A stretch of 64,000 nucleotides of DNA from Xanthomonas sp. DAR 35659 (lineage in GTDB: Bacteria > Pseudomonadota > Gammaproteobacteria > Xanthomonadales > Xanthomonadaceae): NCBI RefSeq assembly GCF_041242975.1, contig NZ_CP162488.1, positions 3,214,001-3,278,000 on the forward strand, in the 5' to 3' direction. Position numbers and translations under genes: made by a program. Numbering within the stretch: the stretch's first letter is position 1; the number at the start of each line of letters is the position of its first letter. The notes under the pieces are model-generated. The model was not told the origin of the DNA. It searched no databases and saw only the letters and a program-made list of their open reading frames with translations. Below are positions 23,925-35,301 of the stretch, piece by piece.

Positions 23925-23985
23925 AAAAAACCCAGCCTCGGGCTGGGTTTTCAGAACGAACGGCACGACGCTCCGGTTACCCAGC
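23925..23985 (-). promoter_or_regulatory. Candidate arginine attenuator (terminator with competing antiterminator)
   Basis: On the minus strand a 7-bp stem (CCCAGCC/GGCTGGG, 23931-23947) is followed by six Ts (23930-23925): an intrinsic terminator placed before argF'. A segment GCTGGGT at 23985-23979, overlapping the stop codon of an upstream mini-ORF, is complementary to ACCCAGC of the terminator's 5' arm (23948-23942). The two pairings exclude each other. A ribosome finishing the leader would cover the first segment and permit termination; one stalled at the Arg codons would leave it free. It could instead be a plain terminator for the gene ending at 24122. Confidence 0.5.
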
Positions 23986-24078
23986 GAGAATGTGGGATTC
24001 CGGTCGACGCGCGCGCGATGTCATGCCCGAGGCCATGCGGGCGGCGCTGAGATCGTGCTGGGGCAGGTTCGCTTTCAT
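23977..24078 (-). CDS. Putative arginine leader peptide
   Basis: A 33-codon ORF with an AGGA nine bases before its ATG, ending with TAA 29 bases before the terminator stem. It has four Arg codons, three of them packed as Arg-Ala-Arg-Arg at codons 22-25 and including the rare CGA. They lie eight codons before the stop, so a stalled ribosome would leave the antiterminator segment free. Arg content is modest compared with classical leaders (12%), so this is a proposal from position and pairing, not from composition alone. Confidence 0.42.
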   Translation of the reverse strand: MKANLPQHDLSAARMASGMTSRARRPESHILAG

Positions 24079-24121
24079 CGGCGCGCATCCTCGCACACGC
24101 ACGCCACAGGCGCAAGCGCGC

Positions 24122-34075: not shown

Positions 34076-34121
34076 GCATCCGCTACGCCGTGCGTCTTCT
34101 GTCTTATGTAGGAGTCAACTG

Positions 34122-35045
34122 TCATGCAGCAGCGATGACCGGGGGCGCGTAGGAGGTCTGATCGCGTGCGATGGCATTGAGCCAGCGCAGGAACTTGTGC
34201 ATGCAAGCGACGATGGCGACCTTGGACGGCTTGACTGCTGCCTTCAGGCGTGCATAGGTGTTGGCTAAGGGGGAGCCGGCGCGGATGGAGGCCCAGGTGG
34301 CCATGTACAGGACCCGTCGCACGTCGGCGCGTCCGCCGGTGATGCGGCGTTGGCCTTTCCAGCCACCGCTGTCGCGATTGAACGGGGCCAGCCCGACCAG
34401 GGCGGCGAGCTTGCGCGGCGGCAGCGTTCCCAGTTCCGGCAGCCGTGCGGCCAGGGTGGCGCGCAGGATCGCTCCGACCCCAGGGACCTTTGGCAGGGTC
34501 GAACATGTTCTGGCCTGTTGCTCGACCTGCCGGTCCAGCGCCCGGATCTGTTGATTCATCAGGGCGATGACCCGCTCGCACTGGTGGCGCACGTCGGGAC
34601 TGGTGATGTGATCCAGGCGGCGCCGGTGGGCATCGCGCTGGCCGACCACGGTGGTGCGCAGGTCGAGCAGTTCGCGTAGCTGCTGCAGGTGCTCTGGCAG
34701 CACGGTCGTGGGCGTGGTCGGGATGTGCTCAGCCGCGATGGCCAGCAGCCGCGCGTCCAGGGCGTCGGTCTTGGCATGCAGGCCCAGTGCGTTGGCCAAC
34801 GCACGCGGGCGCTGGGCAGACATGCGCACCGCCGGCAGGTCGGCCTGGCGCAGAGCCCGCAGCACCGCCGTCTCATAGCCGCCGCTGGCTTCCAACACGA
34901 TCCGCTCACAAGCCATCGTGGACAGACGCTGGACCAACTCACGCCGTCCTTGCAGCGTGTTGGGCTGGGTCCAGGCCAGTCCGTCCGGCTGCACATGGAT
35001 GACCAGTTCGGCCTTGGCCACATCGATTCCGACAAAGCGCCGCAT
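34122..35045 (-). CDS. IS110-family transposase (DEDD recombinase)
   Basis: A 307-residue recombinase. The RuvC-like acidic residues are Asp8 (GIDVAK), Glu52 (LEASGG), Asp94 and Asp97 (KTDALDA). The C-terminal transposase_20 domain has VPGVGAILRATLAARLPELG and the conserved serine motif DSGGWKG (Ser226). Both catalytic parts are intact, so it may be active. The ATG has GGAG nine bases upstream; the longer frame upstream runs into the element's non-coding RNA region. Confidence 0.95.
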   Translation of the reverse strand: MRRFVGIDVAKAELVIHVQPDGLAWTQPNTLQGRRELVQRLSTMACERIVLEASGGYETAVLRALRQADLPAVRMSAQRPRALANALGLHAKTDALDARLLAIAAEHIPTTPTTVLPEHLQQLRELLDLRTTVVGQRDAHRRRLDHITSPDVRHQCERVIALMNQQIRALDRQVEQQARTCSTLPKVPGVGAILRATLAARLPELGTLPPRKLAALVGLAPFNRDSGGWKGQRRITGGRADVRRVLYMATWASIRAGSPLANTYARLKAAVKPSKVAIVACMHKFLRWLNAIARDQTSYAPPVIAAA

Positions 35046-35074
35046 AGACGTTCTCCGCAGTAGACTCAGGGACG

Positions 35075-35240
35075 AGAGCGCTCCTGCCGATGCCCACGCT
35101 TGTGAGGTTCGAGTTCGCGGCTCGGGCAACTGTTCGGGCTTATCAGGCAGGAGAAACGGAGTGCGGCGGCACTGACTCCTACTCGTGCTCGTTTGGCACT
35201 GCGGCTAAACGGCCTGCCGCACTCCGCTCTCACCTACAAC
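35075..35240 (-). ncRNA. Candidate IS110 bridge RNA
   Basis: The recombinase's 5' non-coding region folds into two adjacent hairpins. One (35157-35226) has an 11-bp stem CGGAGTGCGGC/GCCGCACTCCG; its loop holds AGCCGC and GUAGGAG (minus-strand sense), which pair with opposite strands of the REP-like target on the two sides of the AG/CT core. The other (35081-35153) has an 8-bp stem CTCCTGCC/GGCAGGAG; its loop holds ACAGUUG and CACAAG, which pair with the element's own two ends (34116-34122 and 35258-35263). This is the target-loop/donor-loop arrangement known from IS621. RNA ends are approximate. Confidence 0.78.
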
Positions 35241-35301
35241 GATAAAGCCTAGTAAGACACAAGCGGCTTCAGCCGCGACAGACAGCGTCCTTCCCGACGT
35301 G

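Follow-up and report, generated by a model that had tools for sequence, protein, structure and literature searches.

An IS110-Group Element and Its Recombinase

An IS110-group element of 1,147 bp lay intact on the minus strand of the window (the whole 64,000-nt stretch of DNA analysed), at 34115–35261, with a copy of the core dinucleotide CT at either end; all features of the element given below lie on this strand. The boundaries were set by comparison with 15 other full copies in the genome and with empty sites. An earlier interpretation made from the letters of this DNA (the sequence-only reading) had recognized an IS110 element here and had placed its limits at 34107 and 35280; the family assignment stood, while the element proper proved to be shorter. 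The AG/CT core that it had described was correct, with AG on the plus strand and CT on the sense strand, and was present as a left copy (35262–35263) and a right copy (34113–34114), whereas empty sites had one copy only. The left end of the element formed the right donor (RD, TGTGTC; 35256–35261), where CTTGTGTC was unchanged in 28/28 aligned non-coding regions (NCRs), and the right end formed the left donor (LD, ACAGTTGA; 34115–34122). Outside the cores lay the two parts of a split REP-like palindrome, the left target (LT, GTCGCGGCTGAAGCCG; 35264–35279) and the right target (RT, CCTACA; 34107–34112).

The single gene (34122–35045) encoded an IS110-family recombinase of 307 aa, and its stop codon shared one base with LD. 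Both family domains in Pfam, DEDD_Tnp_IS110 and Transposase_20, were matched, as was the NCBIfam model “IS110 family RNA-guided transposase” (190.8 bits vs. a cut-off of 140). The sequence-related solved structures were IS621 and ISCro4 only (E = 4.8e-15 and 1.3e-16, respectively), and residues D8, E52, D94, D97, and S226 aligned with the DEDD and serine catalytic residues of IS621, named as essential in the IS621 structure paper (PMC11208158). The non-coding sequence comprised 216 nt before the start codon, in the left end, and 7 nt after the stop codon. No end-to-end inverted repeat occurred among the 25 longest of 46 inverted repeats. The long non-coding left end, the short right end, and the lack of long sub-terminal inverted repeats correspond to the layout of the IS110 group, of which nearly all the features tested were present.

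Genomic Copies and Empty Sites

The host genome (5.4 Mb, one contig) contained 16 full copies, six at 96–100% and ten at 84% DNA identity. All 16 were inserted at the same base of the REP-like palindrome, in the same orientation and with a 2-bp core duplication, giving the layout GTCGCGGCTGAAGCCG-CT-[element]-CT-CCTACA with small variation. The left flank was AAGCCGCT in 15/16 copies and AAACCGCT in 1/16, and the right flank was CTCCTACA in every copy; one copy was flanked by AAACCG in place of AAGCCG. Exact GGCTNNAGCCGCTCCTACA sites numbered 424 in this genome, and the head GTAGGAGCG is common to Xanthomonas REPs described in the literature (PMC2817692).

Among 20 orthologous intergenic loci, those of three relatives (L134 in G014, L135 in G002, and L136 in G017) had the REP doublet unbroken, with only one core, at the place matching that of the window copy; the remaining loci gave no clear counterpart, and L137 gave no match. 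The window copy therefore entered the second REP of a doublet, leaving a CT on each side. The comparison of copies with empty sites proposed in the sequence-only reading thus yielded an intact empty REP in three relatives and one REP position for 16/16 host copies. Genome G003 had its own copy in another REP, a short distance downstream of the same flanking gene (L142/L037, G003:C1:3349543-3351395), apparently a parallel insertion. At the cut-offs used, relatives of the element occurred in 12/20 genomes of the genus and 17/297 genomes of the family, and a protein search of genome contigs returned one locus.

Guides in the Non-coding Left End

All four loop guides claimed in the sequence-only reading were present in the NCR. 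The left target guide (LTG, AGCCGC; 35201–35206) equals the top strand of LT including the core C, and the right target guide (RTG, GUAGGAG; 35176–35182) is the complement of CTCCTAC. The left donor guide (LDG, ACAGUUG; 35127–35133) equals LD, and the right donor guide (RDG, CACAAG; 35099–35104) is the complement of CTTGTG. This is the pattern of IS621-type bridge RNAs, with two loops and four guides, the left guides equal to the top strand and the right guides complementary to it. The guides LTG, RTG, LDG, and RDG were 6, 7, 7, and 6 nt long; the right-target guide has 4 nt in IS621. RTG and RDG read both core bases, LTG read only the C, and LDG ended one base before reaching the core in the clade of the window copy. 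In the IS621 model all four guide interactions include the core, whereas the left-target guide of this family (6–7 nt) lacked the core T in most relatives.

Chance agreement was assessed with 20,000 dinucleotide-preserving shuffles of the NCR, with the first 20 nt removed and without demanding the order of the loops. The observed guide length was reached in 7,253 shuffles for LT, 524 for RT, 901 for LD, and 1,363 for RD. The 6-nt LTG by itself is thus no evidence, because such a match is frequent by chance in GC-rich sequence. All four guides at once were reached in 0/20,000 shuffles, so the four as a set are not expected by chance.

A putative fifth guide, overlooked in the sequence-only reading, is the UCA adjoining RTG (35173–35175). 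It is complementary to the donor end TGA; UCA and RTG together thus give the RNA a 10-nt match to the right junction of the inserted element (pair I17). The corresponding base of IS621 serves as the handshake guide and pairs with the donor once strands have been exchanged (PMC11208158). The first handshake base matched the last donor base in 34/36 elements (26/27 within the family and 8/9 distant ones). The matches were of three kinds, U with A in 21 elements, C with G in 12, and A with T in one. The two misses were L096, which has a weak right-target guide, and L040, where the script matched the wrong place. The donor-loop handshake base was constant within the family.

Predicted RNA Fold and Stem Covariation

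The two hairpins proposed in the sequence-only reading, with an 11-bp stem (CGGAGTGCGGC/GCCGCACTCCG) and an 8-bp stem (CTCCTGCC/GGCAGGAG), were both found in the sequence, and the 11-bp stem was also recovered in the inverted-repeat search. RNAalifold, run on an alignment of 28 distinct NCRs from 17 genomes, gave one stem-loop for the target and one for the donor, both closed by a long-range stem. The long-range stem P1 (GAGAGC, 35226–35231, pairing with GCTCTC, 35074–35079) was conserved with little covariation, since 4/6 of its pairs never vary. Within it, the target-loop stem P2 (35216–35226 with 35158–35167) carried an apical stem-loop (GTGC...GCAC; 35185–35199) in which 100% of cells paired. 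The donor module was closed by P3 (CTCCTGCC, 35146–35153, with GGCAGGAG, 35081–35088) and contained the nearly invariant inner stem P4 (GCCCG, 35135–35139, with TGGGC, 35092–35096; 98.6% of cells paired) and an apical stem-loop (CGAG...CTCG; 35110–35124). The fold, with two stem-loops, internal loops, and covariation, is of the IS621 type. IS621 has a 5′ stem-loop, while in the modeled structure here the conserved GAGAGC/GCUCUC pairing would close the whole RNA.

With guide–guide pairs excluded, 97.9% of cells in the aligned structure paired, a value reached in 0/500 shuffles, and versions of the structure slid along the alignment paired at 31–55%. The sequence-only reading had named a lack of stem covariation as evidence against itself; change on both sides was found in 8/32 pairs and 35 cells, with 0/500 shuffles as high. 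Most of this signal came from the target stem P2 (5/12 pairs), and the donor-loop apical stem-loop contributed 2/5 pairs. One of the five covariation measures, that of further pair types, did not rise above the shuffles (234/500). The outer donor stem P3 was shifted in the alignment and was therefore tested separately. Its cognate arms paired over 6–11 bp (G-U allowed) in 20/20 distinct arm pairs, with sequences that differed between clades; the mean was 8.3 for cognate and 6.7 for non-cognate arms, and 5.4 (maximum 9) when one arm came from the group above 60% protein identity and the other from the group below it.

Folding the entire NCR was uninformative (z = -1.59, 11/200 shuffles as good), the donor hairpin being hidden. 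The predicted transcript (35074–35232, 159 nt) folded with z = -3.19 (2/200 shuffles as good) into the target stem, the 8-bp outer donor stem, and the closing long-range stem; the apical donor hairpin was absent from its minimum-energy fold. Elsewhere in the window, Rfam matched the Xanthomonadaceae small RNA Xoo5 (RF02242) at 23957–24080 on the minus strand (111 bits), the only family in the window to reach its gathering score.

Agreement Between Guides and DNA Among Relatives

In a table of 69 elements, the guide equaled the left target at the C and G directly before the core in 69/69 and at the core C in 61/69, and agreement was poorer further out. The right flank was CTCCTAC in 66 and CTCCCAC in two of the 68 elements with a right end; one of the latter had the matching guide GUGGGAG and one did not, L079 being inserted at CTCCCAC with the guide GUAGGAG. 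Sites that ignore the loop guides, the other observation that the sequence-only reading had held would speak against it, were thus not found overall, with L082 poor in its left target. This single copy (G154) had the guide CGGUCGC at the site GGCGCGC, while its right-target and donor guides did match. L083/L088 and L085 matched the left target in part, and the decayed copies L040 and L050, whose genome has several partial copies, showed donor-guide mismatches. These exceptions, L079 included, may reflect drift, wobble, or tolerated mismatches. The genome of L040 and L050 (G019) also held L060 and further partial matches, and its two copies with a left end carried the guide GUGGGAG, suggesting a decaying population. 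The table left out L060 (no left end) and L086 (truncated NCR), and right-end tests left out L042 (no right end); L039 and L061, apparently one place, count as two rows in it and as one in the promoter and site-choice tests. Partial matches in G018, G019, G218, and G758 were mostly left out.

Covariation of guides with DNA was analyzed in 12 of the 28 usable distinct NCRs of the family and in nine of ten class-level loci; L095 was left out (no clear ends), L097 was used without a left end, and two of the four G132 copies were used. The permutation tests take no account of relatedness among the elements. Right targets matched their own NCR over a mean of 7.14 nt, compared to 5.09 nt for NCRs of elements at other sites (0/20,000 permutations, 21 elements). 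The corresponding values were 6.81 and 4.49 for left donors (0/20,000, 21 elements) and 5.75 and 4.93 for left targets (5/20,000, 20 elements). No covariation was found between right donors and RDG (7,885/20,000 permutations as good). For the 12 family elements alone the tests were weak (738, 1,241, and 1,711 of 20,000 permutations for LT, RT, and LD), because the sites of the family are so similar. The left donors ATAGTCT, ATAGTCA, ACGGTTA, and ACGGTTG of L093, L094, L096, and L097 each had a guide identical to the donor, and the right targets CTTTTGC, CTCCCCC, and CTTGTTA were accompanied by the guides GCAAAAG, GGGGGAG, and UAACAAG. Matches were poor for the donor ACGGTTG of L050 (4 nt) and the right target of L096 (5 nt); the latter, like the left targets of L089, L092, and L096, matched its own NCR no better than other NCRs.

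Five of the class-level IS110-group elements (L089, L091, L093, L094, and L098) had an upstream guide-RNA region and right-target guides TAACAAG. Their sites consisted of TAACG, some 50–80 nt, and then CT-TGTTAG or CT-TGTTAT, and look like integron attC sites. The attC-targeting elements named in PMC11187229 belong to the IS1111 family.

Given its position immediately upstream of the gene, the predicted RNA could instead be a regulatory leader or a small RNA that controls expression of the recombinase, without any guide, as for ISPpu9, whose expression small RNAs are thought to modulate (cited in PMC11208160). From such a role one would expect neither four stretches that match target and donor nor guides that change as the DNA does, and as a substitute for guidance it is very improbable; guide and regulatory roles could coexist.

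Site Choice Among Natural REP Variants

The REPs of Xanthomonas genomes combine a left part AAGCCG or AAGTCG with a right part CTCCTAC or CTCCCAC, and the number of each form varies by genome. REP sites were counted in 12 Xanthomonas genomes, nine of them in the main test, with G018 added later; the site-choice test did not include G005, for want of a right end, or G019, whose decayed copies carry another guide. The REP forms and the tests were picked after the flanks were seen, occupied sites were included in the background, and the P values presume independent insertions and flanks unchanged since.

Elements with the guide GUAGGAG in the nine genomes had 1/51 insertions at CTCCCAC vs. 10.8 expected (P = 2.4e-5), and 1/54 vs. 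11.3 expected with G018 included. With the guide AAGUCGC, in four genomes, the doubly matching form AAGTCG/CTCCTAC held 4/12 insertions vs. 0.35 expected (P = 2.9e-4), the others being 7/12 at AAGCCG/CTCCTAC and 1/12 at AAGTCG/CTCCCAC. These strict counts exclude four insertions that deviate from AAGYCGCTCCYAC; including them gives 1/55 and 5/13. An overall preference of this guide for AAGTCG was not found (5/12 vs. 4.6 expected), because most AAGTCG sites in these genomes carry the avoided CTCCCAC. With the guide AGCCGC, 0/39 insertions were at AAGTCG vs. 2.9 expected, a marginal result (P = 0.046). Site choice among natural REP variants follows the right guide, and the left-target evidence is uneven across elements.

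T-form sites made up 15–42% in the four genomes with the guide AAGUCGC and 3–20% in five genomes with AGCCGC. As a tentative proposal, about which we are more doubtful than confident, the family might have a compact bridge RNA closed by its long-range stem and lacking a 5′ stem-loop, with guides that drift with the REPs of the host; a left-target U would read both C and T forms through G-U wobble, so that one guide could follow a changing REP population.

Two other accounts of the choice of REPs were considered. With 424 exact GGCTNNAGCCGCTCCTACA sites in the genome, REPs might be used merely as abundant, safe intergenic places, the agreement with the guides being a side effect; this is hardly credible, as the 16 copies of the host occupy one base position in one orientation and the variant CTCCCAC is avoided. 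The recombinase protein might itself read the palindrome, and the NCR matches would then be leftovers or chance; for IS1397 and ISKpn1, which belong to another IS family, evidence suggests that the protein does read the REP (PMC1525189). Because the REP sites of nearly all family members are much alike, reading by protein and reading by RNA cannot be told apart from target preference alone; furthermore, the left-target match is common by chance, and a protein with a preference for CTCCTAC could equally avoid CTCCCAC. A protein reader would not explain why RT and LD change with the guides in distant relatives (e.g., CTTTTGC/GCAAAAG and CTCCCCC/GGGGGAG), why the handshake base tracks the donor end, or why the guide matches are located in defined loops with covarying stems, and we consider it quite improbable. 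Recombination guided by a bridge RNA of the IS110 group accounts best for the insertion of the element, with a probability of roughly 0.93.

Predicted Circle-Junction Promoter and Proposed Insertion Cycle

In the circle, the right end supplies TTGA (from LD), which is completed by the core CT and the left end to TTGACT-N17-TATCGT, with 9/12 consensus positions; the -10 box TATCGT lies at 35239–35244, and this predicted promoter is complete only in the circular form. Among 27 representatives, 20 had 8–9/12 matches and seven, a clade near 45% protein identity, had 6–7/12. The best score in the inserted form was 6/12 for the window copy and 5–8 for the whole set, with L033 and L034 reaching 8/12. 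A sigma-70 scan of the inserted form detected no promoter-like site, in line with a promoter that exists only in the circle. Initiation 7 nt past the -10 box would fall near 35232, immediately ahead of the long-range stem and about 6 nt before the target stem, and an IS621-like 5′ stem-loop would therefore not fit.

Transcription, RNA binding, and strand exchange are inferred from IS621, and the cycle is proposed by analogy. The recombinase would excise the element as a circle, whose joined ends (right end, CT, and left end) would make the promoter, with the -35 box TTGA|CT spanning the crossover. Transcription through the left end would then produce an RNA of ∼160 nt with the target and donor loops. 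The two guides of each loop would read opposite sides of the core, the left guide on the bottom strand and the right guide on the top strand. The target loop would find ...AGCCG-CT-CCTAC... in a REP-like palindrome, and the junction of the circle would be bound by the donor loop. At CT, strands would be exchanged by the DEDD/serine recombinase; the handshake bases UCA would then pair with the incoming donor end TGA. The inserted element would have a fixed orientation and be bordered at both ends by CT.

Relationship to Known Elements and Significance

The anatomy, the copies, the empty sites, the agreement of guides with sites, the stem covariation, and the site preference are direct observations, and the IS621-type interpretation offered in the sequence-only reading gained support from the two lines of evidence that could have overturned it. 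Judged from sequence, the element almost certainly carries its own bridge RNA, and the mechanism would be the one known from IS621. It resembles IS621 of E. coli in its DEDD and serine recombinase and in a bridge RNA of the left end with the target loop preceding the donor loop (PMC11208160, PMC11208158). Further likenesses to IS621 as described there are left guides that read the bottom strand and right guides that read the top, a handshake base after the right-target guide, the CT core, the REP target, and a promoter made at the circle junction. It differs in that the recombinase match is remote (58.9 bits), and the REP sequence is unlike the IS621 target quoted in PMC11208160. The best sequence match among solved structures was the ISCro4 recombinase (PDB 9t56), a comparison of the protein alone.

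The IS110-group elements ISPpu10 and ISPpu9 of Pseudomonas putida had 7/7 copies each in REPs with 2-bp direct repeats (PMC1525189); they belong to another host and are likened here by description. The seekRNA elements of the IS1111 group (e.g., ISPa11, ISKpn4, and ISPst6) are also RNA-guided and DEDD-type, and ISPa11 targets REPs (PMC11187229). That group has its guide RNA downstream of the gene and sub-terminal inverted repeats, whereas the guide RNA here is upstream. Membership in the IS1111 group was considered and rejected, with only 7 nt separating the stop codon from the end of the element.

Already described for the IS110 family (PMC11208160, PMC11208158) are the mechanism by bridge RNA, the CT core, insertion into REPs, a promoter at the junction, covariation of guides with targets, handshake guides, and, in some orthologs, longer right guides; the present element is therefore a well-supported further example. 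Durrant et al. (2024; PMC11208160) predicted a bridge RNA in 85.7% of the IS110 elements in ISfinder, and ISPpu10 is one of six elements for which a predicted bridge RNA is shown there. IS110 insertions into REPs were cataloged in PMC1525189, where Xanthomonas is absent from the text consulted. A literature search for a Xanthomonas bridge RNA, or for a bridge RNA of a Xanthomonas IS110 element at REPs, found no paper (supplements lay outside the search), and the word Xanthomonas is absent from the main texts of PMC11208160 and PMC11187229, with a supplementary entry possible. The novelty that the sequence-only reading had seen in a Xanthomonas bridge RNA is thus weakened by the ISfinder prediction and the REP-dwelling ISPpu10.

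The most useful additions are the test on natural REP variants and the handshake base. With these results, a multi-copy family of Xanthomonas and related genomes joins the elements whose bridge RNA can be read. These genomes combine dozens of separate insertions with dozens to hundreds of natural REP variants and form a library for measuring the mismatch tolerance of a bridge RNA, and the short RNA with its long right-target guide may interest builders of programmable recombinases.
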